From a virus, in IMG/VR virus record IMGVR_UViG_3300042293_000071, positions 1 to 40,549 of that record: a stretch of 40,549 bases of DNA. The stretch is one strand, 5' to 3'. The notes beneath the pieces were generated by a model, which was not told where the DNA came from, ran no database searches, and saw nothing but the letters and a program-made list of their open reading frames with translations. The position numbers and the translations under genes were made by a program. Position 1 is the first letter of the stretch. The number at the start of each line of letters is the position of its first letter. Positions 10,276 to 40,526 of the stretch are shown one piece after another.

Positions 10276-11670
10276 CTAGAATTGTCCTACTGCAGATGTA
10301 GTAAGACTTGTTTTGTTCGTGCCTGCTGCACCACTAAAGGATGCAATTTCACGTTGTGTAAGTTTTTGACGCTTACGTTGTGCTGATGCTAGACTATTAA
10401 ATACCTCTTGCTCAGCTTCTGTCTGGCCATAACTATCAAGAGTTGTGCCATAGATATCAGATAGTTTCTCAGCAGTTGGAAGGATATCTGCAATAGTTGC
10501 GTAACCCTTTTGTGCTTCTGCCTGTGTAACACCTTGTGCTGCTAGTTGTTCAGCAACTGATACACCAGTCTTTAGCCCTTGACGTGCCGCTGCTACACCA
10601 ATTTCAGATGCTGCAACCTGACGTTCAATCTTCTGGAACTGCTGGTTAGGGTCTAGTACATAAGCAACTAGGTCTGCTTGGCCAATGCCATAGAAATCAC
10701 GTAGTTGCTGTGAGATAGCAGGGTCAGCATTCTGTACACGCTGTACTGCTGTAACCACACGGTTAGAAAGTTCTGCAGCAGATACGTCATTAGCGATGAA
10801 CTGAGATACATAATCATCAGTATCAAACTGCTTGAGTCCATACGCACGTAGAACCTGGCGATAGCCATCTTCAACATTAAGGTACTCTCCAGGATTAAGA
10901 ACTGCTAAGCCCTTCTTAATGCGTGCTTCATTTGCCTTGAAGCGCGTCTTGTACTCTTGAGTCTCTTGCAAGCCTAATGTAATCGTTGCTTCAGTTGCGC
11001 CATCAATTGCTAGTTCTTTAATCTTATTAACAAGACTGCCTAGACCATAACGCTGAAAGCGCTCAGTAAGAACATCTATAGCATTCTTACGTGTAGTCTC
11101 TGCTGCAGCTTTCTTCTCAGCTGCCGCTAAGTCTGCGGCTGTTTTGTTTGCATTAGATAAGTTAGCAATTTGAGAATTTAATGATTGAATCAGAGCAAGT
11201 ACAGCAGGGTCAGTTATGTTATTAATAATAGTTTGCGGTGACGGAGCATTTGGTACAACTCCTGGAGGAGGTGGTGGGGTAGCGGTTGTGGTCTTTTTGG
11301 TAGTTACTTGACCAGTTATTGGGTCTACAGTTGACTTATATCCAGGCACGTTTTGGTTAATTACTGTAGCAGTATTAGTAGCATTCTCAAATGCTGCCAA
11401 TTGTGCAGAGGTTTTACCAGTTGAGCCGACCTTCATTGTGTAGTAACGTGGGTCGTCCATGCCCACTGGTCCACTTAGAACTTCACTTGGTGCAGCAGCA
11501 GGGCTTACGCTTACTGGAACACCTAATGCAATTTTTTCAGCATCAGTTAATGGCTGACCTGCTCCTAGTTTTCTAACAGCTGTTTGCATCTGTGCTGGAG
11601 TTAGCGTAGGGTTATTGGGTACACCGCCACCTTCACCATCAACCATCATTAATTCTGGATTGTATCTCAT
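10276..11670 (-). CDS. Probable internal virion protein
   Basis: I choose ATG 11670 (MRYNPELMMVDGEGG), whose A is shared with the TAA of the upstream gene (TAATG); a TTG 15 bp further upstream is also open. The 464-residue product has a Pro/Thr-rich linker near residues 125-140 (TTATPPPPPG), then helical stretches rich in Ala, Gln and Lys, including LQETQEYKTRFKANEARIKKGL and QQLRDFYGIGQADLVAYVLD, ending AAGTNKTSLTTSAVGQF. No catalytic motif is seen. It is the third of four large proteins between portal and capsid, likely carried inside the head and ejected with DNA, as in podoviruses; inference from position and composition. Confidence 0.55.
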   Translation of the reverse strand: MRYNPELMMVDGEGGGVPNNPTLTPAQMQTAVRKLGAGQPLTDAEKIALGVPVSVSPAAAPSEVLSGPVGMDDPRYYTMKVGSTGKTSAQLAAFENATNTATVINQNVPGYKSTVDPITGQVTTKKTTTATPPPPPGVVPNAPSPQTIINNITDPAVLALIQSLNSQIANLSNANKTAADLAAAEKKAAAETTRKNAIDVLTERFQRYGLGSLVNKIKELAIDGATEATITLGLQETQEYKTRFKANEARIKKGLAVLNPGEYLNVEDGYRQVLRAYGLKQFDTDDYVSQFIANDVSAAELSNRVVTAVQRVQNADPAISQQLRDFYGIGQADLVAYVLDPNQQFQKIERQVAASEIGVAAARQGLKTGVSVAEQLAAQGVTQAEAQKGYATIADILPTAEKLSDIYGTTLDSYGQTEAEQEVFNSLASAQRKRQKLTQREIASFSGAAGTNKTSLTTSAVGQF

Positions 11671-12527
11671 TACATCAGACCCCAATCGCTGAATACTTTA
11701 GTAGTAAGTGAATCAATAGTGTTACGTGCATTGTTTGTATATACCCAGTCAGGTGAACTCTTGATTGTCTTGTCAACCATCCATTGTGGCATTATCTCTT
11801 GCTTGCCAGTAGTAGGGTTAATGTAACCCATGATTCTTTTAACCAAAGGATTATTAAAGTCTACTGTATCTGGGTCTAGTTCTAGAATGTTAGCTACTGA
11901 AGATGTTACGTTAGATGCAAGGGCTGACAAAGATACGTTATTCTTGATTCCTTCTGCATATGCAGGGTATGCGCTAGCGGAAAGATTCTTAATATCATTC
12001 ATGATATCGTCTGTTGTAGTCTCACCAGCAAATAATGCTGTCGACTTTGTATCCCAATATGCAGTGTTTAGTAGGTTGCCAACGCCGTAGGCGTTAGCGA
12101 ATGATTGCAATGCCGATACGGAACTCATGGTGCTTCCACCAAGTTTGCCCATAGAGCCAGACTTGACAATTAACTGGTCAACCTGGTCTTCACTCATACC
12201 ACTCTGGTAACCAATTTCTACTTGCTTTTCAACACCAGGTGTCCATTGAATACCTTGCTGAATCAAACGCTTCTTTGACTTTACCTTGTATGCATTTAAG
12301 TCTTGTGCATATACGCCAGGCTGATTAGTCGCCGCAGTTTGTCTGGTACGAGCAATAGAGTTATTGTTTCGGTAGAATGCACTTCCTAAAACGAAAGAAC
12401 GGAAGCCGTCCATGTCCCCTTTAAGATATGCCTGCCATGCTTTCTCAAGGTCTGGGTCAGTAGCCTTGAGAGCAAGAATCATTTGAAGTTGTTCTGCTAC
12501 GGTAGCATCGTTGTCGCTAATAGCCAT
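11670..12527 (-). CDS. Probable internal virion protein
   Basis: A 285-residue, mostly helical protein with no recognised enzymatic motif. Segments include DLEKAWQAYLKGDMDGFRSF, an ALQSFANAYGVGNLLN stretch and a C-terminal TIDSLTTKVFSDWGLM. It lies between two larger proteins of similar style, overlapping the upstream gene by one base and the downstream gene by one base, so all three are translated together. Injection or inner-core protein is the best guess for a phage without visible tape-measure gene. Confidence 0.5.
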   Translation of the reverse strand: MAISDNDATVAEQLQMILALKATDPDLEKAWQAYLKGDMDGFRSFVLGSAFYRNNNSIARTRQTAATNQPGVYAQDLNAYKVKSKKRLIQQGIQWTPGVEKQVEIGYQSGMSEDQVDQLIVKSGSMGKLGGSTMSSVSALQSFANAYGVGNLLNTAYWDTKSTALFAGETTTDDIMNDIKNLSASAYPAYAEGIKNNVSLSALASNVTSSVANILELDPDTVDFNNPLVKRIMGYINPTTGKQEIMPQWMVDKTIKSSPDWVYTNNARNTIDSLTTKVFSDWGLM

Positions 12528-13795
12528 TATAGACCTCCAGACAAGATACTAGTCATATCTTTCATAAACTCAAATCCCTTGCGGCGTTCGAATTCCTCAG
12601 GATTTGATTCCTTAAGTTTCTTTTCAACAATTGCTTCAGATGCTTCAGCAGTAAGACCAGGTGTAGTAACCTGTACATTCTCCAACTTTCCAGTCTTCTT
12701 GTTCTTAACCTTCTTGTAGGTAGTAAGAGTACCAGTGTTGGCCTTGTTAAGTAGGTCAAACAGTTCTTCTTTTTGGGTGGCATCTAGCTTCTGACCAATC
12801 TTACTGAGACCCCATTGGTCTAATGCTTCGAATGTTTTAACCTTGTCTAACTCTGAAATAGAACGAGTTGGAAGAGTTGGCTCATCTCCCTTTACAGACT
12901 TTAATGAATCATTTAGTAACTGAAGTGGAGTAACCTTAGGTCCACGCCCACCTTGATAGATTGTAGCTGCAGTTGTCACTAGTTGTGACCATAAACCGTA
13001 TGCCTCTACAGTGCTAATAGTTTTGCCTTTGGCAGCATATGCACCAATAATTCTATTCTGTAAATCCTGGTTATTCCAAAAGTCAGCCGCATAATTTGAA
13101 GCCAACTTTAATGTAGGTGTAACTGATGATACTGGTTTGCCATCCTTAAAAGTTAATCCTTTTGTAGGGTCATTAACTTCTCCAGTATATACAAACGCTG
13201 TACTTCCAGCTGCTCCTGCTGCCCATACAGATGGGTCATTCATGTCAAGACCAGTGGCTGCTCTAAGGTCTGCAGCTAAATCATCAGTAATACCGACAGG
13301 TGCATTCGGTGCAAGGGCTGGTCCCTTAAGCGAAGGTACAGGTTTATCAGACTTTGGTGGAGTCTTGGCTTCTCCTGCTAATTGACGATTAATCTCAGCC
13401 AGTCTAGCACGGTCTGCTTTTGTAGCCTCCATAGAAGCAATACGTTCCGCTGCAGTATTTGCAGTAATATCTACTTTAGAATTAGCAGCAATTCTTGCTG
13501 TTAATTCCTTTTTTTCAGCAAGCAACTTTTCTGTACTGCTTGATGATGTAGAGCCAGTTGGTTTTGGTTTAGGCGCTAATGAGGGTGTTTGCAATGGTGT
13601 AGACTTTATAGTGCCATCTGGATTAAAACTAAGTCTAACTGGGACTCCATCAGCATTTGCTGGAAGGCCATCACTGTAATAGGATACGATACCAGTGCGT
13701 GGATTTTTGTATTCACCGTTGGCTCTCTTACCCGTTACTGTGTCAATTACATATCCCTTGGAATCTGGTCCAAGTTTTGATGAATCTCCAGCCAT
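12527..13795 (-). CDS. Probable internal virion protein with disordered linkers
   Basis: A 422-residue protein beginning MAGDSSKLGPDSKGYVIDT. Residues ~75-150 are Pro/Lys/Ser/Thr-rich (including a coiled stretch KLLAEKKELTARI), residues ~170-330 are helical, and the C-terminal part has KKVKNKKTGKLENVQ. It has no signal peptide or recognised motif. It follows the 1537-residue protein after a 49-bp gap with no strong structure and belongs to the same leftward string. Structural or ejected protein inferred. Confidence 0.5.
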   Translation of the reverse strand: MAGDSSKLGPDSKGYVIDTVTGKRANGEYKNPRTGIVSYYSDGLPANADGVPVRLSFNPDGTIKSTPLQTPSLAPKPKPTGSTSSSSTEKLLAEKKELTARIAANSKVDITANTAAERIASMEATKADRARLAEINRQLAGEAKTPPKSDKPVPSLKGPALAPNAPVGITDDLAADLRAATGLDMNDPSVWAAGAAGSTAFVYTGEVNDPTKGLTFKDGKPVSSVTPTLKLASNYAADFWNNQDLQNRIIGAYAAKGKTISTVEAYGLWSQLVTTAATIYQGGRGPKVTPLQLLNDSLKSVKGDEPTLPTRSISELDKVKTFEALDQWGLSKIGQKLDATQKEELFDLLNKANTGTLTTYKKVKNKKTGKLENVQVTTPGLTAEASEAIVEKKLKESNPEEFERRKGFEFMKDMTSILSGGL

Positions 13796-13844
13796 TATAA
13801 ACCTTTTCCATTGCTATTAAATGTTTGTTGGTAAAACATGATTA

Positions 13845-16800
13845 CTATAGTCCTGAACCTAGATATTTGTCATAGATTCTATCTTGTGATAAGAATCTGT
13901 CATAGATATTAGCAAACTCTAAATCACCAGCTTTAAGTTGGTTAACATAGTAGTCAAGAATTATACGCAAATCTATGTTATCTTTAGCATCGATATTATT
14001 AGATGCTCGTCCACGTAATCTTGCTGCAACTGCATCTCTTGCCTTCATATATACAGCAACTGATTTCCATGTAGGGTCATCAGCATTATCTGCCATGAAC
14101 TTCTCATTAGCAAGAATCTTCTTGAATCCAATGATTGTCTTTGCACCCTTTGTGCCATCAACATCACGGTAGTCTTGGTACCATGCACTAGGTGAGCCTG
14201 TTGGCTGACCTGTAACTGGGTCAATTTCAGATGCTAGTTGCTTAACGATAGCCTGCTTCGCAGCGGCCAAGTCTTCAGCACCTGCCTGTTGTAGTGATGT
14301 AAGTCCACGCTTGTCAAGGTGTGCATCAAGAACTGCCATGGCACGGCGGTACTTAGCCCAGCCTTCACGAGCAGCATTCTGTTGCTGTGCTTCTTGAGGG
14401 TCTTGCTTACCGCGGTACTTCTCGGAACTTCCTGGTGAAATAGATGTCTCTGATTGCCACCAGTATGCTGTAGGATTAAACTTGGCAGCACCTGAACCCT
14501 TGGTAATTAGGCCAATAAGGTATGAGTTATCACCCTTTACGTCAGCGATTAAGTCTGTATAACGCTTAGCATTCTGTACATCATCCATTGTAGCCTGTGA
14601 ACCTGTAGGGTTCTTAGACAAAGATGTAGCAAATCCGAAGTACTCAGGATAATCTTCAAGGAACTTAGCATCTGCACCCAAGCCATAAGTCTGGCTGTAT
14701 TCACGCCACTTATCCATATAGAAACGGTAAGGGCTTTCGAATTGTGGTGCAAATGGTAGGATTAAGTTAGCAGCTACACGCATCTTGTAGAATGCGTCAG
14801 TCTTCTTCTTAATCTCTCCATCTGTAAGATAGGCAGTACCAGCTTCTTGAGCCTTTTGCTGTTCCGTTAACCAGATAAGTTGATATGTCTTAGCATAGTC
14901 ATCGTTGTTTTGGCCTTGTACAGCCTTCAAAGAGTTGCGCATCCATGTAGGTAGGAACTGAGATAGTGATGCATCAGGTCCGTATGGGAATGCAAACGAT
15001 ACTACTTCAGATAATTCTGGCTTTAACTTCAAAACATTTGCTACAGGAATTGCAGCGAATGGTCCGACAGATACGCCAAACGGATTACCCTGGAACATAA
15101 CATCAAGGCTTCGCTTACTAATACCTATCTGGTCAAGTGACGATAGCCCCTCACCAATGATAGGAAGTTTCTTTAATGCCTTAGGCACAGGAAGCCACAT
15201 TGTGTTGTTAGGGTTTAGTGTCTGTCCTGGTGGGACTGGCTCACCCTTTTCATCGGTAATTAGACCTGAACGCTCAGGTGCATTCCATATAATGTTAGCA
15301 CGGTTAAGAATAGTAGGGTTGTCCATAGCAATTCCGAACCATGTCTTAATTGCATTCTCTTGTGCAGAGAAAAATGGTGATACAAAGCGTAGCATATGTG
15401 CAGCATTTGAGCGACGTTCTACGTTATAAAGGATTCCCTTTACACCTTTAAGAGCATCTGCTCGTGCACCTGCAGTTAAGTTGTATTGTAGGTCAGCGAA
15501 CTCTTCACGAGTAAATGTTCCACCCTTTAAGAACTCTGCCGTCTCAAGACGCTTCTGAATAGACTTCTCATATAGGTCAATGAACAATGGATGACGTGCC
15601 CAGTTATCTTCAGGTATTTGCGCTAGATACTTAAACAATGATGATGTAATTTGTCTAGTAACAGCCCGTGGCCTAAGATTCATGTTAGCATCCAGTAAAT
15701 GACCGTGCACAATAGGTAGTGCATTAGGGTCACGTACTGCATTACGGAGGAAATCTTCTGTTACCTTGCCAACTTCTTCTCCAGGAAGCGCTGACATAAT
15801 CTTCTCACGTATGCCGTAACCGTCAGGTATGTAGTTGTCTAAGAACTTCTGCGCTGTAACAACATACTCAAGTGAGTCGGCACGGGCAATACCCAAGCGA
15901 GCACGAAGTTCTTTGTTGTCTGCAAGTTCCTTTGCTACTTCATCAACACTCTTGCCAGCCATAAGTCCACGAGGAACTGCAGCATTAGCAAATGTCTCAT
16001 TAATGGCATTTGTCCACTCTTGGTAGTAGTTAACATCGCCTGGACGCACAGCACCACGGCCCTTACTTGCTACGTTTGCACCATAAATGGTAGAGTAGTC
16101 CTCAAGGAGTGAATAGAAAGTCTGCTGTGATGAGTTCAACTCACGGAACAATCCACCATTAGGGCCGCCAAAGGCACCCCAGATTGTGTACTTGGTTCCG
16201 TCTGGACTATCGACAGTTGATGTAAGTTCAATGTCCTGCTCGCCGATGCGCTTCTTGCGTGAAGCAACCTTTGATTGTTCCAACTTAGTAAGTGCCACAT
16301 TGTTTGACTCGTAAGCAGCATTTGCTGTATCTAGTGACTTTTGCTTTACAACTAATTCACCGATTAAATCTGCATTTTCTGGTTCTAGTACAATGCGTGA
16401 TTCAAGACCAGCAACTTCCTTTGACAAGCGTGCAATTTCTGCACCACTCTTTTGAAGTTCATCTTTAAGTGCCTTGTAATCTACCTTAGTTGGCGCTTGA
16501 TAATTATCAACCATGCGATTCTTGGCAGTTCTAGTATTGTCAACTAGATTTCTCATTCCTTCACCTGCGTGACGCAAGGAAGCCATAGCACCTACTGTAG
16601 CCCAGATGCGCAACTGCGAGTCAACTGCGTTGCGGATAGGATATCCAAGGCGCAGAAGAACTGCAGCCTTCCACAGGTCAGATGTTATTGCAATTGTGTC
16701 ATGCAAACTACCGCCGACTGCACGTAATGTGCTGCCATTTCTTTTAATGATTGCATCAATTGAATCAAAATCTGCAATTGGTAAAAAGTTTGCTGTTTGA

Positions 16801-18458
16801 GATTCAAACAATGGTACCTTAATCATTTGATTAAGTTCATGGTCGTACATAAATCCTTCTTCTTTGGATTCACGTAGTTTACCAGCGCGCAATTGTGTGT
16901 GATAATTAAAAAGTTGTTCAGCCTGTTCTTCAGAAACGCCGTTTTTGGCAGCAACAATTCTGTAGCCAGTCTGCTCTAGGTCATTAATGACACGAGCACG
17001 CGCTTCTGGTGTTGTTGCGCGAGCGTATCGTTCGACGTATGATAGGGCATCTTGAGTCGTAAAGGTTCCAGTTTGCAAACGAGTGATAAAAGCTGCACCT
17101 TTTGTAGGCACTGGCCTAGATAACTGAATCAAACGGTCAGTAACTGCTGTTACCTCGCGGATTGAGTCACCTTCGTTAAGATTAATTACACCACTTGGAC
17201 GTTCCTTTTGTCCCCAAGTTACCTTGTAGTACAATTTATGGAACGGTGTCGGCTGATACATTGTAATTTGTGCATCAGCTACAGCATTTGAGTGATATGG
17301 TAGGCTGCGTGCTGTTGCAAGGAAACGACCTGTACCCTGGAATAAACCACCTGCACCTTCTGCAAGTGCTGGAGTTTCTGAAACTCCCAGTAATGTGTCT
17401 ACATAACGGTCATGCTTAGCCCATGCAGAAATAAAATCACGGTCAGCCTGAATCTCATCGGGTGTGCGTAGGGCAAACTGCAACATATCATCAGTTGTAG
17501 CATCGACTAACTTTGCTTCTTCGTTGAGTAAAACTTTGTAATCGCTCATTGACATCTCGCCATTTGCGATACGCAAAGGTGCAGCGATGTCTGGGCGCTT
17601 CAACTCATCAAGAATATCTATACCGCTCTTGTCGCCCATAACTGCAAGCATTGTGTTGACTGCTTCTTCTTTAGTCGCAGCAGTTCCCAATAAATAAGAA
17701 ACAGTAGCTTCATTGTTGCTACCCTTAATCCAAGGGTGATTCTGCGCCCAAGCAATATCATTGTTAGCGAAATCTTCAGCAAGTCTATTGTACTTATCTG
17801 ATAACTTGCTAGTTGTTGGAGCACCTGCACGAACCTCACGAAGTGCAAGGATTGCATCCTTAGCAGAATCTGCAGCACGCTTTGTTGCAACAAACTTTCC
17901 ACCGATAATTGAAACGTCCCCAGCAAACTGAGTGATTGTGTCAACAGTACCTGATGTCAATCGACCCATAAGGCTATTACTAAAAGCTTCTTCGCGTTGC
18001 TTGTCATCGTAGATATCAAAGTCAGAGTCCATAAACTTTGGAGTTAAATCATCTGGTAAGAAATCTCCGACGGCCTGACCGAATTGTGCAGTTAATGCCT
18101 GACCAAAAGAAATTTCATTACGTGCTTCCCAGGCCTTTTTCCATTCTTCAGATATTGAACCTTTGCCACGGCTTGAACCAAACAATGTTATAGCAGAAAG
18201 TGGCTCGCGAATAAGGTTGCGGTTGGTTGCTTCAATAGCACCAAGAACGCCACCGATTGGGCGTAAAGCATTCTTACCTAGGTCAATAGTTGCTTGCTTT
18301 ACTGTACTAAGAAAGCCGTTGTATTCTTTTCTGTCATTCCATGGAGCTGTTGCAATATCCCATGCAAATTTTGCTGGAGATGCAATTGCAAGACCGATGT
18401 CTAAACCCCAGTCCCTGGTTCCTTTTACAAGGTCACCAATACGGTTCCATACGTCCAT
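13845..18458 (-). CDS. Very large virion protein (1537 residues), probable ejected or inner-core protein
   Basis: This is the longest gene here, starting MDVWNRIGDLVKGTRDWG. It has predicted amphipathic or weakly hydrophobic stretches near the N-terminus (GLDIGLAIASPAKFAWDIA) and again near residues 615-650 and 1080-1220, a coiled-coil-like region (~660-745, DELQKSGAEIARLSKEVAG), and a C-terminal helical half. There is no clear catalytic signature. Size, location between portal and scaffold, and amphipathic N-terminus fit a podoviral internal protein that helps form the DNA conduit across the envelope; a giant polyvalent protein is the alternative. It overlaps the preceding gene by one base (ATG at 18458). 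Confidence 0.55.
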   Translation of the reverse strand: MDVWNRIGDLVKGTRDWGLDIGLAIASPAKFAWDIATAPWNDRKEYNGFLSTVKQATIDLGKNALRPIGGVLGAIEATNRNLIREPLSAITLFGSSRGKGSISEEWKKAWEARNEISFGQALTAQFGQAVGDFLPDDLTPKFMDSDFDIYDDKQREEAFSNSLMGRLTSGTVDTITQFAGDVSIIGGKFVATKRAADSAKDAILALREVRAGAPTTSKLSDKYNRLAEDFANNDIAWAQNHPWIKGSNNEATVSYLLGTAATKEEAVNTMLAVMGDKSGIDILDELKRPDIAAPLRIANGEMSMSDYKVLLNEEAKLVDATTDDMLQFALRTPDEIQADRDFISAWAKHDRYVDTLLGVSETPALAEGAGGLFQGTGRFLATARSLPYHSNAVADAQITMYQPTPFHKLYYKVTWGQKERPSGVINLNEGDSIREVTAVTDRLIQLSRPVPTKGAAFITRLQTGTFTTQDALSYVERYARATTPEARARVINDLEQTGYRIVAAKNGVSEEQAEQLFNYHTQLRAGKLRESKEEGFMYDHELNQMIKVPLFESQTANFLPIADFDSIDAIIKRNGSTLRAVGGSLHDTIAITSDLWKAAVLLRLGYPIRNAVDSQLRIWATVGAMASLRHAGEGMRNLVDNTRTAKNRMVDNYQAPTKVDYKALKDELQKSGAEIARLSKEVAGLESRIVLEPENADLIGELVVKQKSLDTANAAYESNNVALTKLEQSKVASRKKRIGEQDIELTSTVDSPDGTKYTIWGAFGGPNGGLFRELNSSQQTFYSLLEDYSTIYGANVASKGRGAVRPGDVNYYQEWTNAINETFANAAVPRGLMAGKSVDEVAKELADNKELRARLGIARADSLEYVVTAQKFLDNYIPDGYGIREKIMSALPGEEVGKVTEDFLRNAVRDPNALPIVHGHLLDANMNLRPRAVTRQITSSLFKYLAQIPEDNWARHPLFIDLYEKSIQKRLETAEFLKGGTFTREEFADLQYNLTAGARADALKGVKGILYNVERRSNAAHMLRFVSPFFSAQENAIKTWFGIAMDNPTILNRANIIWNAPERSGLITDEKGEPVPPGQTLNPNNTMWLPVPKALKKLPIIGEGLSSLDQIGISKRSLDVMFQGNPFGVSVGPFAAIPVANVLKLKPELSEVVSFAFPYGPDASLSQFLPTWMRNSLKAVQGQNNDDYAKTYQLIWLTEQQKAQEAGTAYLTDGEIKKKTDAFYKMRVAANLILPFAPQFESPYRFYMDKWREYSQTYGLGADAKFLEDYPEYFGFATSLSKNPTGSQATMDDVQNAKRYTDLIADVKGDNSYLIGLITKGSGAAKFNPTAYWWQSETSISPGSSEKYRGKQDPQEAQQQNAAREGWAKYRRAMAVLDAHLDKRGLTSLQQAGAEDLAAAKQAIVKQLASEIDPVTGQPTGSPSAWYQDYRDVDGTKGAKTIIGFKKILANEKFMADNADDPTWKSVAVYMKARDAVAARLRGRASNNIDAKDNIDLRIILDYYVNQLKAGDLEFANIYDRFLSQDRIYDKYLGSGL

Positions 18459-18915: not shown

Positions 18916-19461
18916 CTACTTAGTAAATTGTTCAAAGATATGAAACGGCGGAGCCGTCTCGTTATTATTAACTGCTGCAATTCTCATTGCATCTAGCATT
19001 GTAGTTCCTGCATGTAGCGCTCCAACTGCAAAGTCACCACCAGAACCAATACCATAAAATCCTGTGTTATTCATTCCAACTGAAAAATCAGAATCTATTT
19101 CAAAGATAGTTCCATTGATTCCTAGTAGAAGACTTAGTTCAAACTTGTTATCATCATCGTCTGATGTTTTATTAAAGTCTACGCCTGCTTCAGTAAGTGC
19201 CGCTTTAAGCGATGGCACTACTTTGTTAATTGCAAACTCGTATAAGTTTGCTTTAGCCTTTACTGTAACTAGTGGAGGCGTCCACCCATGGAGTACCACT
19301 TGTAAACTACGATAGTTACCAGCACCAGAAATAATATAACTTCCACGTTCAACTGCCTTTGTCATGTCGGGGTGAGTGTAAACTTTACCAGCAGCGTTGA
19401 TTCGACTGTCTGCTACGATTACACACTTGTCTTCGTGCTGAACACCAATAATCGTAGTCAT
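18916..19461 (-). CDS. Proteasome/HslV-like Ntn hydrolase, candidate head-maturation protease
   Basis: A 181-residue protein with the 20S-proteasome-β/HslV pattern: MTTIIGV start, so that removal of Met exposes a Thr nucleophile (T2); VIVADSR with D18 matching the conserved Asp17; K35 near the conserved Lys33 position; ISGAG at 45-49; and the typical GSGGDFAVGAL block at 139-149. Length equals HslV. It lies between portal and a disordered head protein, where tailed phages usually encode the prohead protease, and no S14/S49/S78/U35-type protease is visible elsewhere. A role in scaffold or head processing is thus inferred. Alternatives: a protease against host proteins or an inactive structural homolog. 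Start chosen because only ATG 19461 puts Thr at position 2. Confidence 0.75.
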   Translation of the reverse strand: MTTIIGVQHEDKCVIVADSRINAAGKVYTHPDMTKAVERGSYIISGAGNYRSLQVVLHGWTPPLVTVKAKANLYEFAINKVVPSLKAALTEAGVDFNKTSDDDDNKFELSLLLGINGTIFEIDSDFSVGMNNTGFYGIGSGGDFAVGALHAGTTMLDAMRIAAVNNNETAPPFHIFEQFTK

Positions 19462-24829: not shown

Positions 24830-25153
24830 ATGAGAGAGGATAGACACTTGACCTACAACCCTTACGGGGGTTTAGGTAGTATCGTAGTCACGCCACGCAA
24901 GGTTCATGCGTCTGATAGACGCTTGGGCACTATCGGGGCACGACTTACGGACACGCAACATGGTAAAGCCGTACGCATTAAGCGCACACGCACACGCCAT
25001 GCCGTCACGACCAACCGCCCTAAGGTTGAGCGCGTACTACCTACCCTTGATGAAGCCACACAAGAACGCCTAGCGCGTGAACTTGCACTAGCCGAACGCG
25101 AGCAGACCTTTCGCGCCACGCTACCTAGCGTCCACATAGACGCGAACGACTAG
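24830..25153 (+). CDS. First early protein, basic, unknown
   Basis: A 107-residue basic protein: MREDRHLTYNPYGGLGSIVV, an Arg/Lys-rich middle (VRIKRTRTRHAVTTNRPKVE) and a C-terminal helix (TLDEATQERLARELALAERE). Basic middle plus charged helix suggest nucleic-acid binding or a partner-binding adaptor. It is the promoter-proximal early gene behind the four-promoter array, a position commonly used for host-takeover proteins; function is otherwise unknown. The ribosome site is weak (AGG 6 nt upstream, inside a predicted hairpin). A 96-bp gap with an inverted repeat GCCACGC (25160-25166) / GCGTGGC (25198-25204) follows. Confidence 0.6.
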   Translation: MREDRHLTYNPYGGLGSIVVTPRKVHASDRRLGTIGARLTDTQHGKAVRIKRTRTRHAVTTNRPKVERVLPTLDEATQERLARELALAEREQTFRATLPSVHIDAND

Positions 25154-25350: not shown

Positions 25351-25491
25351 ATGACACTATCTACAAGTGACATGTTCGCCCTAATGATAGCCTTGCTATC
25401 GGTGAACATGGTACTATTGATAGCCTTTCGTAGAGTCTATGTGTTAGAACGTAGACTACGCCGTTACGAGGGGTACTATGACGCACGATAA
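25351..25491 (+). CDS. Small single-span membrane protein (46 residues)
   Basis: ATG 25351 to TAA 25491. Residues ~7-26 (DMFALMIALLSVNMVLLIAF) form one hydrophobic helix, followed by a basic cytoplasmic tail (RRVYVLERRLRRYEG), so the C-terminus should be inside by the positive-inside rule. It overlaps the next gene by 14 bp. Early single-span proteins of this sort may affect host membrane processes or exclude other phages; unproven. Confidence 0.55.
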   Translation: MTLSTSDMFALMIALLSVNMVLLIAFRRVYVLERRLRRYEGYYDAR

Positions 25492-25666
25492 CCTATTGTT
25501 AGACCTTACACAACGTGAGGTCGAGGTTATCCGACTTGCACTACGATTGCAAGAGGATACCCATAAGCGCAACGATTTCCCTAGCCTAGTGCTAGAGGTA
25601 CAAGGCTTGCGCTCAAAGATTGCGGACGCAATTATAGACAACGCGAGAGAATTGACAAAGGCTTAA
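25478..25666 (+). CDS. Small helical early protein
   Basis: A 62-residue protein, MTHDNLLLDLTQREVEVIRL, almost entirely α-helical and charged, with heptad-like Leu/Ile/Val spacing through VLEVQGLRSKIADAIIDNA. GAGGGG 4 nt upstream of ATG 25478 is a good ribosome site, within the end of the membrane-protein gene. It could be a small coiled-coil dimer, adaptor or regulator. Unrecognised. Promoter P6 begins inside its last codons. Confidence 0.55.
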   Translation: MTHDNLLLDLTQREVEVIRLALRLQEDTHKRNDFPSLVLEVQGLRSKIADAIIDNARELTKA

Positions 25667-25680
25667 CGCCATGCTATACT
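25652..25680 (+). promoter_or_regulatory. Rightward promoter P6, near-consensus, ahead of the amidoligase gene
   Basis: TTGACA (25652-25657), 17-bp spacer, TATACT (25675-25680); predicted start near 25687. It has the same boxes and spacer as P4. The leader contains AGAGGGGG, 8 nt before ATG 25711. It gives the amidoligase/amidotransferase gene set its own strong supply of message. Confidence 0.8.
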
Positions 25681-25710
25681 ACGACTATACAGCGAGAGGG
25701 GGTGAGATAC

Positions 25711-26997
25711 ATGGAGGATAACGAGACTTTAGCATGCCACACATGCTCTAACAAGATAGAGTCGGGTGATGAGTTAGTCCTCAACGACTACACTTACTGC
25801 ACCGATTGCGTGTTCAGTTGCCATGAGTGCAACGACATACGCGACACTGAGGACAACATCATTGTCAATGGTGAGTATTGGTGTACAAGTTGCGCTAGTC
25901 ACTGTGACCGCTGTGAGGACGGCATGCCTAGTGAGAATAGCCACACAGTAGATAACGAGGATTGGTGCGACTATTGCTACGAGAATTACAGTTACTACTG
26001 TGAGAATTGTTGCGAGTCGTCATCAGAGAGTACAACCTACGTTGGGGATAACCCATACTGTGAGAGTTGCTTCTCTGATAACTGCTACTACTGTGATGAC
26101 TGTGATGAGTCATACCACAATGATTACCCTTGCGATTGTCGTGAGAGCGATAGTGTAGAGGGTAAGTGTTGCCGTGGCTACCGCGCAAGCGGTACTATCC
26201 ACGACTACTCATGCAAGCCAGCACCTATCTTTAAGGGTGTCAGTAAGCGCAAGATGTATCTCGGCTTTGAGCTAGAGACAGAGATGCCACGCGTAGATGA
26301 GGGTGCGTACTTTGCTTCTAGTGCCTTGCAAGGTACTGCCTACCTCAAACATGACGGAAGTATTACTAGTGGGTTCGAGATAGTTACTCACCCACATACG
26401 CACCAAGAATACCGCGACAATAGTGCAACGCTATGGAATACCATAGAGACACTACGCAAGGACTATGACGCTAGGTCGTGGGATACAGACACATGTGGTC
26501 TGCACATACACCTAAGTCGTGACGGATTTAGTAGTGGCGCACACTTGCATAGGTTCATAGCCTTTGTGTACCACAACGCACCACACATGATGAAGTTTGC
26601 GGGTCGTAAGTCACGCTTCGCAAGGTTCAATGATGTGTACACCTTTGACGAGTATGACCGCCCCGTATTCTCTATCAAGCACAAGGTCGGCAACCCCGAC
26701 CGACACAGCACAGAGAGATACTCAGCCGTCAATACGCAGAACAAGAACACCATAGAATTGCGCTTCTTCAGGGGCACAATGAAAACAAGTGGCGTGTTAA
26801 GTGCCCTAGACTTAGCACAAGCCATGGTAGAATACACTAGGGAACTACGACTAGATGACGTCAAACTTGGCGCACTATCTTGGGAGTGGTTTGCTGACTA
26901 TGTAGTGTCCAACAATGGACTCTACCCCGACCTATACTCTAGGTTGGACAAGATACAATCAGTAGACATCAACAACAAGATAACTGCTAACGCTTAG
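25711..26997 (+). CDS. Cys-rich zinc-binding region fused to a glutamine-synthetase-fold amidoligase
   Basis: I choose ATG 25711 (GTG 25702 is also open but lies within the ribosome site). Numbering from the GTG start: residues ~12-171 hold about 25 Cys, mostly CxxC pairs (C12/C15, C33/C36, C40/C43, C61/C64, C68/C71, C89/C92, C131/C134), consistent with several LIM- or treble-clef-like zinc knuckles. Residues ~185-400 match Amidoligase_2-type COOH-NH2 ligases: YLGFELETE (186-193), LKHDGS (215-220), GFEIVTH (224-230), CGLHIHLS (265-272), and IELRFFRGT (351-359). Known members of this superfamily use ATP to join a carboxylate to an amine. The next gene is a glutamine amidotransferase, so the pair may carry out glutamine-dependent amidation or ligation. 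Target unknown: cell-wall peptide, host protein or phage protein. Confidence 0.8.
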   Translation: MEDNETLACHTCSNKIESGDELVLNDYTYCTDCVFSCHECNDIRDTEDNIIVNGEYWCTSCASHCDRCEDGMPSENSHTVDNEDWCDYCYENYSYYCENCCESSSESTTYVGDNPYCESCFSDNCYYCDDCDESYHNDYPCDCRESDSVEGKCCRGYRASGTIHDYSCKPAPIFKGVSKRKMYLGFELETEMPRVDEGAYFASSALQGTAYLKHDGSITSGFEIVTHPHTHQEYRDNSATLWNTIETLRKDYDARSWDTDTCGLHIHLSRDGFSSGAHLHRFIAFVYHNAPHMMKFAGRKSRFARFNDVYTFDEYDRPVFSIKHKVGNPDRHSTERYSAVNTQNKNTIELRFFRGTMKTSGVLSALDLAQAMVEYTRELRLDDVKLGALSWEWFADYVVSNNGLYPDLYSRLDKIQSVDINNKITANA

Positions 26998-27009
26998 GGA
27001 GATGATACT

Positions 27010-27813
27010 ATGTGCTTACTTGTAGTGTGCGAGCCAAACTCCACACCAAACAAAGCAGACTTACACGCTGGTGCGTGTAGTAATCCACACGGATTTGGCT
27101 TTGCTATTCATGCTGGTGATAGGATTATCTCAGAGCGTAGCATGTCTGCTAAAAAATCTATTGCACGCTTCTTGGAATTACGCAAGCAATTCCCTGACGG
27201 CTACGCCATGTGGCATGCACGATACGCCACACATGGTGTTAAGAACGAACAGAATTGCCACCCCTTCAAGGTTGGTGATGATGAGCGTACTTACTTAGCA
27301 CACAATGGTGTGCTTGACATAAGTATCGGCAAGTCCGACAAGCGTAGTGATACGCGTGTCTTCGCTGAGGATACACTACCTAGAATTGGTGGCGTGTCCG
27401 CACTTGATGACGATAACGTATGGATTATGGCTGAGACTTGGGCTAAGGGTAGCAAGATTGCTATCATTACATGTGACCCAGCAGCACAACACCCTATGTA
27501 TCTACTCAACGAGTCGGCTGGTTCATGGGACAATGAAGGTATCTGGTGGAGTAACCAAAGTCATAAGCGTACTACCTACCTAGAGCCTGTCAAAGCCATA
27601 GATTATACCGACAAACTGTGGGACTACACAGTAGATGTAGACTTAGAAGTCTGCCCCTACTGTGAGTCTGCCACGGATTTGACAGACAACCCGTACTACT
27701 GTAACATGTGCAAGTCATGCTTTGATTGTTCAATCATGATAGATGACTGCCTATGTTACACACCGAACAAAGATTGGCAAAGCAAACGAAGCCTTGCCGA
27801 TTTCCTATACTAA
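27010..27813 (+). CDS. Class II glutamine amidotransferase-like protein with C-terminal zinc cluster
   Basis: A 267-residue Ntn-type glutaminase domain: MC start so Cys2 becomes the N-terminal nucleophile, HGFGFAIH (27-34), WHARYATHG (68-76), NCHPF (82-86) and LAHNG (96-100). These are the usual GATase-II blocks, including Arg/His/Asn/Gly glutamine-pocket residues. The C-terminal ~50 residues hold CPYC, CNMCKSCFDC and CLC, a zinc cluster in the style of the amidoligase N-terminus. That shared type suggests the two proteins dock on each other or on one target. The gene starts 12 bp after the amidoligase stop with GGGAGA upstream. Expected reaction: Gln to Glu plus ammonia. Ammonia delivery to the amidoligase is inference. 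Confidence 0.8.
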   Translation: MCLLVVCEPNSTPNKADLHAGACSNPHGFGFAIHAGDRIISERSMSAKKSIARFLELRKQFPDGYAMWHARYATHGVKNEQNCHPFKVGDDERTYLAHNGVLDISIGKSDKRSDTRVFAEDTLPRIGGVSALDDDNVWIMAETWAKGSKIAIITCDPAAQHPMYLLNESAGSWDNEGIWWSNQSHKRTTYLEPVKAIDYTDKLWDYTVDVDLEVCPYCESATDLTDNPYYCNMCKSCFDCSIMIDDCLCYTPNKDWQSKRSLADFLY

Positions 27814-27828
27814 CTAGAGAGGTAACAA

Positions 27829-28092
27829 ATGTCTAACGACACAATCCTAAATCTTGCTGAGGAATTACGCATTATCGCAGACGAGATTTCATACAACGCA
27901 GTTGATACATCAAGTGACTACCCAAAGCGTGGCACTATCGTGAAAGCACTACCTTCACAGACACGCTTCAAGCCTAAGTCTATGTGGGTATCACTAGGCA
28001 ACGGCACATACAAGCACCTTACTGGTAGCAAGGGTCTCATCACTACACATGAGAGACTATCAGGCTACACAGAAGTGGTGTTCGAAGCGTAA
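27829..28092 (+). CDS. Small protein following the amidoligase/amidotransferase pair
   Basis: An 87-residue protein: acidic helical N-terminus (LNLAEELRIIADEISYNA), then a basic β-type part (KPKSMWVSLGNGTYKHLTG) reminiscent of a small barrel. Unrecognised. It begins 15 bp after the amidotransferase stop with GAGAGG upstream and is probably co-transcribed, so it could be a substrate, carrier or specificity subunit of that pair; a guess from position alone. A 66-bp gap follows with no strong promoter or terminator that I can see. Confidence 0.55.
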   Translation: MSNDTILNLAEELRIIADEISYNAVDTSSDYPKRGTIVKALPSQTRFKPKSMWVSLGNGTYKHLTGSKGLITTHERLSGYTEVVFEA

Positions 28093-31178: not shown

Positions 31179-31569
31179 CTGCCTTTGCTCTCTTGTATAG
31201 TCGTGTCGCTGACATTAAATCATCTACTGTAATTAAGAATCCCTTAGACAAATTAGGTGGGATGTTACACGTAATCTCTCTACCAAATTCTTTAACTGCA
31301 TAACGCAACGCATCTGTTGGGACAATGAGTGTGCTCTCTTCAAGCACGAACGCCCAGTATGCTGCTTCTGTCACACCTAACCCTGATGGTGCCCAGTCCT
31401 CAATCTTCTTGAAGAAGCACTCAGTCTCAATGTATAGGTTGTTAGTCTTAGCCCACTTGCGGTCACGCTTTACTTCGACAGTACGTCCACCAGTAAGCAA
31501 CTCATCTACTAACTGCTCGCCCTTGCGTCCGTATCCAAAGTCTAAATCGAATGAAGATTTGTTAGTCAT
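31159..31569 (-). CDS. PD-(D/E)XK nuclease-like protein
   Basis: I start at ATG 31569 (MTNKSSFDLDFGYG), which overlaps the upstream stop by 8 bp; the longer frame lies over the upstream gene. The 136-residue product carries GYGRKGEQLVDELLTGGRTVEVKRDRKW, read as an E...(D/E)-x-K arrangement (GE in the first helix, VEVK in the strand), followed by TNNLYIETE. That is a reduced PD-(D/E)XK pattern like VSR or resolvase-type nucleases. Its cutting activity and target cannot be told from sequence. Overlap with both neighbours marks it as part of the replication operon. Confidence 0.6.
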   Translation of the reverse strand: MTNKSSFDLDFGYGRKGEQLVDELLTGGRTVEVKRDRKWAKTNNLYIETECFFKKIEDWAPSGLGVTEAAYWAFVLEESTLIVPTDALRYAVKEFGREITCNIPPNLSKGFLITVDDLMSATRLYKRAKADELATN

Positions 31570-31948
31570 TGTCCCATTGCTTTCGTAAAACCAGCAACCC
31601 AATGATTGCATAGTTAGCCATGTCCTTGAAGGAATCTTCTAAGGATTCGTGCTCAGGGTTTGCACCACTGTCAATCAGGTTATTGATTCGTGCTAACTTA
31701 TCATGCATACGTACACGCAGACCATTGATTGCACCACCTGGTGCTTGGGAAATATTCTTAGGACCATAGTCCTTATGCTTGCTCAGCAACAACTCAGACA
31801 ACTCATTGATTGTGTTGCTAAGGTGCACCTCTAGGTGGACTTCGCGTGCAATAGCGGTATTGTTAAAGTTATTTTTAGCTGAGTGTTTTCCTTGTGATAC
31901 GACTGTATCTTCAATCCCAGTCCTGATACGTATTGGATAATCTGCCAT
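31562..31948 (-). CDS. DUF1599-like (nucleotide-modification-associated) protein
   Basis: A 128-residue helical protein with LLLSKHKDYGPKNISQAPGG, RMHDKLARINNLIDSGANPE and ESLEDSFKDMANYAIIGLL. This order (KxxDYG, then R..DKL.R, then D...D.ANYAI) matches the DUF1599 family, which in phages is associated with nucleotide metabolism or modification and resembles MazG-like all-helical pyrophosphohydrolases. A hydrolase role on a (d)NTP is therefore plausible but not shown. No base-modification enzyme is otherwise evident here. The gene stands 6 bp after the upstream stop. Confidence 0.65.
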   Translation of the reverse strand: MADYPIRIRTGIEDTVVSQGKHSAKNNFNNTAIAREVHLEVHLSNTINELSELLLSKHKDYGPKNISQAPGGAINGLRVRMHDKLARINNLIDSGANPEHESLEDSFKDMANYAIIGLLVLRKQWDND

Positions 31949-36838: not shown

Positions 36839-37041
36839 TCATTCTTCCCTCGCTGTAACATCATTTGGTATAGAATTTCTACTTTTTCTTCCAGTCTAAT
36901 GACGGAATCTTTAACACTTGAACCACCATTGGGCTTAAGTTCGTTGAGGTAGTGCTTGACTAGCCACTTAACGGCTCCAAGGAATCCACCTATAATTGTA
37001 AGTACTGCAACGGCTACCGTTGCGTAGTCTTGTGGTTGCAT
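36835..37041 (-). CDS. Membrane protein with C-terminal coiled coil, second holin-type candidate
   Basis: A 68-residue protein: one membrane helix (residues ~7-28, TVAVAVLTIIGGFLGAVKWL) followed by a helical charged tail (DSVIRLEEKVEILYQMMLQR). Similar small proteins stand next to actinophage endolysins as holin or lysis-accessory proteins. ATG 37041 shares its A with the TAA of the nozzle gene (TAATG), and its end overlaps the endolysin start by 4 bp. Confidence 0.6.
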   Translation of the reverse strand: MQPQDYATVAVAVLTIIGGFLGAVKWLVKHYLNELKPNGGSSVKDSVIRLEEKVEILYQMMLQRGKNE

Positions 37042-39257
37042 TAGACTGTCCTAATCGTGATATCAATGACACCACCATAGCCTGTGAAGCCACGGTCTGG
37101 AGGTGTGAGGCGGGTGAAAGAGATTTGTTCAATGACAGCCTGACGTGACTCACCTGTGGTTAAGTCTTGCCAAGTTACAACGTCACCATTTTCTTCAATG
37201 GATTCTAGCTGGGCAATTCTATCGAAGGCTCTGCCTTCATACCCAACCTGTACGTTGTATCGGTCTGTCTCCACGTCATAGCAATAGACGGGGAATCTCA
37301 TTACACGTTGGCGAGGCGTAGCGATAGTCGACTTAGCCTGATAGCCTTCCATGATTGGTCCCTTAGTGTTGTCAACACCATCACGGAATAAGAGGAACTT
37401 ATAAGCCAGATATTCCTGTGCTTCTTGTGGATTAGATGTAGTTACTTCTACTGGCGGGACTGACGCATCGTAAGATACGACATCGTACTCAGTGCCATCT
37501 GCTGTAACTGTTTCCAGTGTCATTGAGCCATAGGTATAGTCACCGCGTGCAATAAGACGCTTGAAGTTCTTTGGCTCTAGCGTGTTGTAGCGAATGTAGC
37601 CAGTCTGTATGTATCCAGTTGGTAGCAGTTCTGTGTCATCTTGAATGTATGTAGAGCCAGGAGTATTGGCTACTGCTGTCGCTGATGATACTGCAGTCGA
37701 TGCCACGGTTGAAGTCACCGCGCTAGTGTATGTAAAGGTTGTTGTTGTTGCACTCGTCACAGTCCAAGGACCAGTAGAAGAGTTAAAGTTAGAATCAACT
37801 CCCTCTACCCATACAGCATCTCCAGTAGTCAACCCATGGGCTGTAGCGGTTGTTAGTGTTGCAACACCTGATGTCATAACCTTATTGGTAATTGTGCCAC
37901 CAACAGTTAAACCAGTGGATGCAAATACTAATTGGTCAGTGCCGTTAGCAAATGCGCAAGCAGTAGTGACACGGCCTGTAACTCCACCATAATAGATATC
38001 GTTTGCATAAGCAAAGCGCAATGCTTCCAACTGTAGACTTAGGTCAATACGGATAACTCCAGGTTCGCCATCTACGCCAGTTGCACACCATACATAATGG
38101 TCACGGCTAGCAAAATCATAGCAAGGCTGGCTTGTCTCTACGATAAGAGGTCCATAAGTAAGTGAACCGTCTTGGTCTGAAACTACTGCAACGCGGATTC
38201 CCTTGTTAGTTCCAATAATCATATAACCTAAGTAGTAGTGAATCTTATGTACGATTTCACCTACTGGGAACTCTGCTGCAGTAATTGCAGATGTCAATGT
38301 TGGCATAACGCCAGCAGTTGATAGGGTAAACTTGATGATGCTAGACTGGATTCCATTGTAGCCAGATACGTAAATGGCAGGACCAGAAGCAGCAACAGAT
38401 GTGTACACATGGGTTGTTGATGGGTGTGTGTATACAGGGCTTGGCATCGCTACTGCAGATGCAGCAAACTCATACACCTTGTTATCGGCGCACATAACAA
38501 TACGCTCTTTTACATACTCCATAGCAGCGTTGTTGATTGTGCCAATCTCATCAAACATCAGTGTAACATCTGCTGTAGATGCAGAAGTGCCAGTCAGTGG
38601 CTTCTTGTATACAGTCTTTTTGGTTGATGTGTTAGTAATCCAGTAGGCAAATGTTCCATCGTCGCAGATAGCATATACCGCTGAATCTGTGCCAGCATTG
38701 TAGTTAATGAAGTGTGTCTCATTGCCATCGGTATCAATCTTATCAACATCATATTCATCTGCCAATAAAACGCCTGGAGTATCATTCCATCTAATCGAAC
38801 GTAGGTATTGATTTGGGCGACCATTAGATTTGATTGCTCCAGTTGTAATGTGTCCTACATTAACATTATTAAGTAGCGTTACTTTACCCTGTGTCCATAC
38901 ATCTACACCCTTGCTATCGGCAAAGCGATAGTGGTCAGGTGAGTTAGATGCAGTCTGGGCTGGGTCGTAAAAGGTTATACCGTCTCCACCGTGGAAAGAC
39001 TGCTGACTACGAATCCACCAACCAGTAAGTGATTGCTCGCCTGGTTCAGTCTGATTGTCGAACTGTTCCTTACGGAACGGTGCAGTCTGTCGGATATAAG
39101 GACGTGCATCGCTGATAGCATAAATAAACGGCATACCGCCAATAGCAGTATCGTATGCTACATCAGTGTTCTGCCAGATGGATGTAGTAGAAACTACACC
39201 AACATCAACAGCAATTGCCCGCGTTGCACGACCTTCGGTAATATCACGACCAGCCAC
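37041..39257 (-). CDS. Tail nozzle-like β-rich protein with an inserted domain
   Basis: A 738-residue β-rich protein starting at GTG 39257 (AAGGAG 6 nt upstream). It opens with GRATRAIAVDVGV and PGEQSLTGWWIRS; the middle has repeating WxxD/Y-type strands suggestive of a β-propeller (DDGTFAYWITN, GPAIYVSGYNG, DHYVWCATG). Around residues 455-535 lies a Thr/Ala/Val-rich stretch (GVATLTTATAHGLTTGDAV) that looks like an inserted Ig-like domain; the fold then resumes and ends DRGFTGYGGVIDITIRTV. In podoviruses the tail nozzle (T7 gp12) has this size and β-propeller core. That assignment is inferred. The left end of the window holds a diverged N-terminal copy. Confidence 0.6.
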   Translation of the reverse strand: MAGRDITEGRATRAIAVDVGVVSTTSIWQNTDVAYDTAIGGMPFIYAISDARPYIRQTAPFRKEQFDNQTEPGEQSLTGWWIRSQQSFHGGDGITFYDPAQTASNSPDHYRFADSKGVDVWTQGKVTLLNNVNVGHITTGAIKSNGRPNQYLRSIRWNDTPGVLLADEYDVDKIDTDGNETHFINYNAGTDSAVYAICDDGTFAYWITNTSTKKTVYKKPLTGTSASTADVTLMFDEIGTINNAAMEYVKERIVMCADNKVYEFAASAVAMPSPVYTHPSTTHVYTSVAASGPAIYVSGYNGIQSSIIKFTLSTAGVMPTLTSAITAAEFPVGEIVHKIHYYLGYMIIGTNKGIRVAVVSDQDGSLTYGPLIVETSQPCYDFASRDHYVWCATGVDGEPGVIRIDLSLQLEALRFAYANDIYYGGVTGRVTTACAFANGTDQLVFASTGLTVGGTITNKVMTSGVATLTTATAHGLTTGDAVWVEGVDSNFNSSTGPWTVTSATTTTFTYTSAVTSTVASTAVSSATAVANTPGSTYIQDDTELLPTGYIQTGYIRYNTLEPKNFKRLIARGDYTYGSMTLETVTADGTEYDVVSYDASVPPVEVTTSNPQEAQEYLAYKFLLFRDGVDNTKGPIMEGYQAKSTIATPRQRVMRFPVYCYDVETDRYNVQVGYEGRAFDRIAQLESIEENGDVVTWQDLTTGESRQAVIEQISFTRLTPPDRGFTGYGGVIDITIRTV

Positions 39258-40005: not shown

Positions 40006-40239
40006 TTACTTAGATAGTGCTGCGATTTCTTCTGGTGTTAGACCAAGTGTTGCTAGTTTAGCCTTAGCAGATTCTTTGGCTGCTTCTTCTGCGGCAACTG
40101 CTGCATCTTGTAGTGCCTTCTGTTCTGCTGCTGCAATAACATCAGCCTCACGCTGTGCAATTTCTTCACCAGTCAATGGCACTTCTGCCACTACACCAGT
40201 TGAGCAGTCTACGATTATTTTTGTTAGTGTCTCTGACAT
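40006..40239 (-). CDS. Small tail-module protein, right copy
   Basis: A 77-residue protein, counterpart of 535-768: the same start MSETLTKIIV and the same end of KLATLGLT-(P/A)-EEIAALSK, with about 12 substitutions, mainly in the Ala/Glu-rich middle (VIAAAEQKALQDAAV here). Ends conserved and middle variable suggest a helical spacer with two fixed contact points. It lies between the glycosyltransferase gene and the 95-residue gene, with which it shares one base (TAATG-type overlap). Confidence 0.7.
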   Translation of the reverse strand: MSETLTKIIVDCSTGVVAEVPLTGEEIAQREADVIAAAEQKALQDAAVAAEEAAKESAKAKLATLGLTPEEIAALSK

Positions 40240-40526
40240 TAGATTATCTCCTTGATAGTATGTTGTTCGTTATTGCAAATCCAAAGACAAGTTGCCTCAT
40301 CTAGTACTGCTTCATCGTGGCACTTAGGTGGAATAAATCCATCTAGTGTTGGGTCATATGCGTAGCCAATACCTGCAAAGTTTTTACGGATATTGTTGTT
40401 GTAACTTGTTTTAACCCAAGTACCGCCAAGTGCGTTAAAGAAGGCTTCGCCTTCATCTCCATAGTTAGGTCCTACTAGAACACGTAGTACTACGTTGTTG
40501 TTATCTACTTCTGCCCAATGACTCAT
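40239..40526 (-). CDS. Small conserved phage tail-module protein, right copy
   Basis: A 95-residue protein, counterpart of 768-1055. The first 55 residues are identical; the last 40 differ at about 10 sites (for example YAYDPTLDGFIPPK against YLYNLTLDAFVPPK). Its ATG overlaps the TGA of a fibre gene that continues beyond the window. Function unknown, as for the left copy. Confidence 0.75.
   Translation of the reverse strand: MSHWAEVDNNNVVLRVLVGPNYGDEGEAFFNALGGTWVKTSYNNNIRKNFAGIGYAYDPTLDGFIPPKCHDEAVLDEATCLWICNNEQHTIKEII

Follow-up and report, generated by a model that had tools for sequence, protein, structure and literature searches.

A predicted glutamine-dependent amidoligase with a LIM-like cysteine-rich arm and its class II glutaminase partner in a phage of probably actinobacterial host

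Background

In podoviruses of the phiEco32, LUZ24 and RIO-1 type, an Amidoligase_2 gene adjoins a gene for a class II glutamine amidotransferase (GATase) within a cluster of non-structural genes, an arrangement that is also found at the locus described here, and phiEco32 and LUZ24 additionally carry a COOH-NH2 ligase, an S6-glutaminyl-transferase/ATP-grasp protein and a GGCT. In two sources, genes of the phiEco32/LUZ24 type figure as a peptidoglycan modification cassette, a function that is predicted (PMC5498523; PMC11945000); the side chains of peptidoglycan are what it would alter (PMC5498523). The idea of superinfection exclusion was repeated by the authors of the OM43 phage study for their own pair (PMC10580990), and for Phage-ZRK32 a role in nitrogen metabolism was proposed for the amidoligase, GATase, glutathione synthase and GGCT genes (PMC10945688). 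The literature searched contained no direct enzymology of an amidoligase/GATase pair and no report of what any such pair modifies. A reading of the present locus made from its sequence only (the sequence-only reading) had stated that no characterised phage example is known, which holds with respect to biochemistry, but the combination had already been annotated and discussed in phages. What is new here is the LIM-like arm of the ligase and a smaller number of genes than in the longer cassette, the pair type as such being known and having been predicted in phages before.

At the level of protein folds, EgtA and EgtC provide a further comparison, as they likewise combine a ligase of the GS superfamily, to which EgtA belongs, with a class II GATase-like Ntn enzyme, and are encoded together in actinobacteria. 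They differ by the lack of a Cys arm, and no other gene of the ergothioneine pathway was found among the proteins scanned.

The locus and its genomic setting

The window, i.e. the whole stretch of DNA that was analysed, comprises the 40,549 bases of the IMG/VR virus record IMGVR_UViG_3300042293_000071 and has a G + C content of about 45%. A near-identity search with the window returned no near match among sequenced phages. The presence of a WhiB-like gene and of a gene similar to L5/D29 gp49, together with the kinship to mycobacteriophage Marvin (see below), suggests from the sequence that it is probably a virus of bacteria with an actinobacterial host. The genes for terminase, portal protein and an HslV-type peptidase are located on the minus strand, and the amidoligase/GATase pair sits in a rightward cluster of small genes. 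The PADLOC profiles for anti-phage defence gave no match.

The gene of the HslV/proteasome-type Ntn peptidase (18916-19461, minus strand; phrog_1040, 2e-22) adjoins the portal gene and was present in 13 of the 13 genomes compared, and the N-terminus MTT of its product fits a Thr nucleophile. The minus strand also carries, at 31562-31948, a gene with DUF1599 ("nucleotide modification associated domain 1"), and 19 of 20 related contigs, with and without the pair, have this gene. Both ends of the window carry near-duplicate genes on the minus strand, 768-1055 with 40239-40526 and 2-508 with 37041-39257 (MSHWAEVDNNNVV... and MAGRDIT...), corresponding either to a duplication of tail genes or to a terminal repeat-like arrangement.

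The following signals precede and connect the two genes of the pair:

25652..25680, plus strand: sigma70-type promoter (P6), TTGACA-17-TATACT, 11/12 match, with TG before the -10 (extended -10)
25694..25706, plus strand: purine-rich ribosome-binding site of the amidoligase gene, nearly invariant (GAGAGGGGGTGAG) among relatives
26998..27009, plus strand: 12-bp spacer ggagatgatact with the ribosome-binding site of the GATase gene, between the TAG at 26995-26997 and the ATG at 27010

The -35 hexamer of P6 overlaps the 3' end of the upstream gene for a 62-aa protein, and both hexamers show hardly any change across 16 relatives. While the near-consensus promoter of the sequence-only reading is thus present and conserved, the assumption that it feeds only this set of genes found no support, since there is no terminator-like site on the plus strand directly after either the GATase gene or the following 87-aa gene, the nearest one being at 28349. 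The 12-bp distance between the two genes, in turn, was reproduced exactly. In most relatives this gap measures 8-15 bp, and in most Firmicutes loci checked stop and start codons abut or overlap.

The amidoligase

25711..26997, plus strand: amidoligase gene, open reading frame with ATG start, 428 aa (PF12224, 1.2e-6; phrog_16683, 1.3e-31)
25735..26139, plus strand: Cys arm, residues 9-143, with five CxxC...CxxC units, LIM-like and presumed to bind zinc
26242..26994, plus strand: GS-fold ligase domain, residues 178-428, delimited by predicted structure comparison and invariant residues

The coding part of the gene (25711-26994) ends at the above-mentioned TAG and is preceded by an in-frame GTG at 25702. 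With respect to its family assignment, the protein scores 29.1 bits against the Pfam profile Amidoligase_2 (PF12224; cut-off 22), which matched in all seven genomes searched including the window, and in NCBIfam it matches no named family. The AlphaFold2 model, computed from 86 aligned sequences, has a mean pLDDT of 88.4 and a pTM of 0.64, with a weak linker at residues 145-152. In this predicted model, residues 178-428 are most similar to YbdK (Z 12.5, rmsd 3.8, 226 residues aligned), followed by glutamate-cysteine ligase (Z 11.9), GS (11.6), GmaS (10.9) and Dop (10.4). The sequence-only reading had proposed a GS-fold amidoligase on the basis of the three motifs GFELETE (185-191), CGLHIHLS (262-269) and IELRFFRGT (348-356), and open reading frame, motifs, a PF12224 score over the cut-off and a YbdK-like fold were indeed all found.

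Together, model and alignment show the fold type of GS as well as conservation of the acidic residues and of those of HxH and ExR. In particular, G185, E187, E189, D215, S217, E223, G263, H265, H267, N341, N344, E349 and R351 are invariant in all of the 96-98 sequences covering the respective positions, and all of them except G263 are presumed to be metal, ATP or substrate residues. Among relatives the catalytic part is 64-94% identical, with residues 361-420 being the most constant (87-100%), and dN/dS for the gene is about 0.16-0.25 in the pairs of sequences listed.

As had been noted from the sequence, a region with about 25 Cys is fused to this domain: 25 of the 26 Cys of the protein were counted in residues 9-168. 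The units of the arm comprise the Cys at positions 9/12-30/33, 37/40-58/61, 65/68-86/89, 97/100-117/120 and 128/131-141/143, the last one ending in CxC. Foldseek pairs the arm with the LIM proteins FHL2, LMO2 and PINCH (E 3e-4 to 6e-4), and in a profile search it matched LIM proteins such as CRP1 (1.3e-5). However, the C2H2 fingers of CTCF score equally well, and therefore the arm is labelled no further than "LIM-like". Pfam returned no LIM-family match for the arm, which is barely covered by the Z-scored fold comparisons. By sequence and model it thus resembles tandem LIM-like zinc units, with zinc being presumed. Its sequence drifts among relatives (40-86% identity) with the Cys remaining fixed, and the number of CxxC motifs is mostly 7-10 in the phage lineage of the window and mostly 6-8 in the Firmicutes pairs.

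The predicted class II glutaminase

27010..27813, plus strand: class II glutamine amidotransferase gene, open reading frame, 267 aa (GATase_6, 5.7e-8; phrog_25883, 3.9e-40)
27010..27567, plus strand: Ntn glutaminase domain, residues 1-186, with Cys2 as nucleophile, R71, T74, H75, G76, N99, G100 and D114
27652..27756, plus strand: Cys-rich C-terminal tail, residues 215-249, containing 8 Cys by count

The second gene (coding part 27010-27810) contains every element that had been claimed for it, namely Cys2 directly after Met1, WHARYATHG (68-76), AHNG (97-100) and the terminal Cys cluster, and exceeds the Pfam cut-offs both of GATase_6 (PF13522; 5.7e-8, 33.3 bits vs 27) and of GATase_4 (7.9e-7, 28.7 bits vs 23). 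For structural comparison a fusion model was available, in which, as the two genes share one frame, the TAG was read as Gln to yield a read-through protein of 700 aa. The GATase part of this model is most similar to the glutaminase domain of GlmS (Z 14.2, rmsd 3.5, 176 residues aligned), followed by EgtC (Z 13.1) and PurF (12.5). The motifs align to those of GlmS and PurF, the residues of a class II glutamine site are present, and C2, H69, R71, T74, H75, G76, H84, H98, N99, G100 and D114 are kept in 99 of 99 distinct viral GATases. In the pairs listed, dN/dS is about 0.05-0.13.

Related pairs in other phages and mobile elements

Adjacent homologous pairs are found in Marvin (gp105/gp106) and Marvin-like mycobacteriophages, in the OM43 (Methylophilales) phages MEP401/402 (gp06/gp07) and the podovirus ctgrD200, and in mobile elements of Firmicutes (loci L187-L197). 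The Marvin amidoligase is about 33-34% identical over 68% of the query and the GATase 34-37% over 96%; as in the other actinophage relatives, the Cys tail of the GATase is kept. It differs, however, by a shorter Cys arm (CxxC at 11, 28, 37 and 40), a gap of 79 bp between the genes and the lack of homologues of the 62-aa and 87-aa genes. In MEP401/402 and ctgrD200, the amidoligase is only about 24-26% identical and has a long N-terminal extension, and the CxxC tail is absent from the GATases of MEP402 and ctgrD200. Nevertheless, the catalytic residues are invariant, so that homologues with an identity of 24-37%, those of Marvin, MEP402 and ctgrD200, retain them. In the Firmicutes pairs, a Cys-armed amidoligase is directly followed by a Met-Cys class II GATase as well, but identity is about 24-34%, there are mostly 6-8 instead of 10 CxxC motifs, and the tail Cys columns are missing from the GATase. 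Among the loci of this kind that were viewed, two have a gene for a serine recombinase or a tyrosine integrase in their vicinity, as named by eye from the translations.

The amidoligases of phiEco32 and LUZ24, in contrast, lack a CxxC arm and are very distant, with E 1.7e-5 for phiEco32 and 0.09 for LUZ24 against a profile of the window's branch. In turn, GGCT (PF06094), RimK-type ATP-grasp (PF08443) and COOH-NH2 ligase (PF14395) were not detected in any of seven genomes, i.e. the window and six relatives, and the PF06094 and PF14395 profiles had no match in Marvin, MEP402 and ctgrD200 either; as positive controls, both were detected in LUZ24 and phiEco32. Therefore, the window's branch is a distinct, shorter and Cys-armed variant.

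The distribution of the tail also bears on the proposal that the two proteins dock through their zinc regions, which was not borne out. The tail-less GATases of ctgrD200 and MEP402 are still partnered by Cys-armed amidoligases, as are those of the Firmicutes pairs. In the 700-aa fusion model each domain is folded without confident packing between them, and with a pTM of 0.46 no interface can be claimed, although a linker of five residues and the blocked Cys2 make this a weak test.

Inheritance of the pair as a unit

The two genes are neighbours in each of the 173 viral loci with both genes in view. As some contigs are counted more than once, this number corresponds to 99 distinct loci; the remaining loci are cut by contig ends. 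To avoid selecting on the pair itself, relatives were also sampled by their terminase, and those with a right flank of 4.5 kb or more were counted. Among the 34 relatives so obtained, 21 have both genes, 13 have neither and none has a single one, and a search of ten pair-less contigs over their whole length for the two genes gave no match. The probability of two presence patterns agreeing in this way by chance is about 1e-9, a figure that overstates independence, since the terminase-matched phages are related and the all-or-none pattern hence represents fewer independent events than 34. The pairwise distances of amidoligase and GATase are correlated with each other at r = 0.96 and with those of terminase at 0.79 and 0.78. 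For either gene, dN lies well below dS. Pair-bearing and pair-less natural relatives have terminases that are about 80% identical.

As about 99 distinct loci keep both genes together with all predicted catalytic residues, and dN is far below dS, the pair is more than a chance neighbourhood. Accordingly, the invariance of Cys2 and of the acidic amidoligase residues in these relatives and the failure to find the two genes apart uphold the view of the sequence-only reading that amidoligase and class II glutaminase form one functional unit. Two neighbouring genes have to be considered in addition:

25478..25666, plus strand: p62, gene for a 62-aa protein upstream of the pair, co-inherited with it
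27829..28092, plus strand: p87, gene for an 87-aa protein downstream of the pair, syntenic within the clade but not obligate

The p62 gene matches neither Pfam nor PHROG families. Of the pair-bearing loci, 185 contain it and 11 lack it, and no pair-less phage carries it; it probably belongs to the co-inherited unit as its third member. The p87 gene, syntenic in 171 loci, had been suggested to encode one of several possible targets of the pair. As an obligate target it is rejected, because no homologue was detected in nine pair-bearing terminase-matched relatives (L253, L257, L240, L242, L270, L256, L245, L267 and L276) or in Marvin, MEP402, ctgrD200 and the Firmicutes pairs.

In a comparison of 13 genomes, the gene content tracking the pair consists of p62, p87, 24830-25153 and the virion genes at 11670-18458, a pattern that is confounded by relatedness. 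The latter are large genes of the structural region (minus strand; 285, 422 and 1537 aa), present in 6-7 of 7 pair-bearing and in 0-1 of 6 pair-less genomes, which relatedness alone could perhaps explain. One contig of 79,356 bases (L019/G034), about twice the usual genome size, carries one amidoligase copy that is 100% identical; the contig is possibly a chimera or a larger relative.

Proposed function and alternative explanations

Taken together, sequence and predicted structures favour, with a probability of roughly 55%, a glutamine-dependent, amide-forming enzyme of two subunits. Both subunits would be expressed from the rightward small-gene cluster, probably early, and the GATase, with its N-terminal Cys2 and Ntn fold, would split glutamine and release ammonia. 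The GS-fold amidoligase would then activate a carboxylate with ATP and join the ammonia to it, another amine being less likely, and the LIM-like Cys arm would probably select or hold the substrate rather than the partner enzyme. A plausible benefit might be an altered host cell surface or host protein during infection. As to the target, our guesses amount to somewhat less than an even chance for a peptidoglycan precursor or stem peptide, about one in three for a host or phage protein and one in four for a small molecule.

Seen as a short form of the phiEco32/LUZ24/RIO-1 cassette, the pair might amidate a carboxylate in the stem peptide or its precursor, either that of D-Glu or that of diaminopimelate, and thereby serve superinfection exclusion or self-protection, which would be one target within the main explanation. 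We regard this as a tentative reading by analogy. The neighbourhood of amidoligase and class II GATase in phiEco32 and LUZ24, the predicted effect of their cassette on peptidoglycan side chains and the extension of this idea to OM43 phages speak for it. Glutamine-dependent amidation of stem peptides exists in bacteria, as described for MurT/GatD of S. aureus. On the other hand, the window and its six relatives lack detectable GGCT, RimK-type ATP-grasp and COOH-NH2 ligase genes, and the phiEco32 and LUZ24 amidoligases are armless and remote. A bacterial enzyme of this kind is also LtsA/AsnB, which amidates stem peptides in a glutamine-dependent manner. No less tentative, and again by analogy, is the proposal that the arm is a protein-binding module bringing the ligase to a protein of the host or of the phage for amidation or conjugation. 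LIM domains are mainly protein-binding, and the similarity of the arm to them, its drift around fixed Cys next to a well-conserved catalytic part, as expected of a recognition module, and the GS-fold protein modifiers Dop and PafA as structural neighbours are consistent with this; but Cys-rich profiles draw chance matches, as illustrated by CTCF, zinc fingers may also bind nucleic acid or merely stabilise, and no target was found. A narrower version, in which the arm docks on one particular protein of the host (or phage) and the ligase, supplied from glutamine, amidates an acidic side chain or the C-terminus, appears rather doubtful.

Since the glutamine-binding residues would equally serve a gamma-glutamyl hydrolase such as EgtC, ammonia transfer is something that we infer, and a couple like EgtA/EgtC stays alive as a rival, in which the GS-fold enzyme makes a gamma-glutamyl conjugate from which the Ntn enzyme removes the gamma-glutamyl group, with no transfer of ammonia. 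The proximity of EgtC to the GATase model and of YbdK and glutamate-cysteine ligase to the amidoligase fits this explanation, which we nevertheless consider unlikely, as the GlmS glutaminase is at least as close, no other ergothioneine-type gene occurs among the scanned proteins, and such a pathway would leave unexplained why diverse phages and Firmicutes elements share the pair. Auxiliary genes boosting glutamate/glutamine turnover, as proposed for Phage-ZRK32 (PMC10945688), are very improbable here: that proposal was derived from what the phage as a whole does to growth, and the LIM-like arm and the inheritance as a unit better fit a specific target. Still less credit is given to a pathway of DNA base modification, to which the DUF1599 gene at 31562-31948 might point, because no further base-modification gene was recognised and this gene is present in pair-bearing and pair-less phages alike, so that its link with the pair was rejected.

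Significance for phage biology

Pairs of an amidoligase and a class II GATase recur in phages and mobile elements, and the window's branch is the simplest seen here, with two proteins, no other recognised cassette enzyme and an abundant phage lineage. Owing to this two-protein simplicity and to the existence of natural relatives with and without the pair, the old prediction of peptidoglycan or protein modification becomes testable. A GS-fold ligase with LIM-like fingers would represent an unusual phage enzyme design, and if it were a protein-amidating machine, it would be the reverse of a deamidase effector and might act as a step in early takeover or in self-protection.
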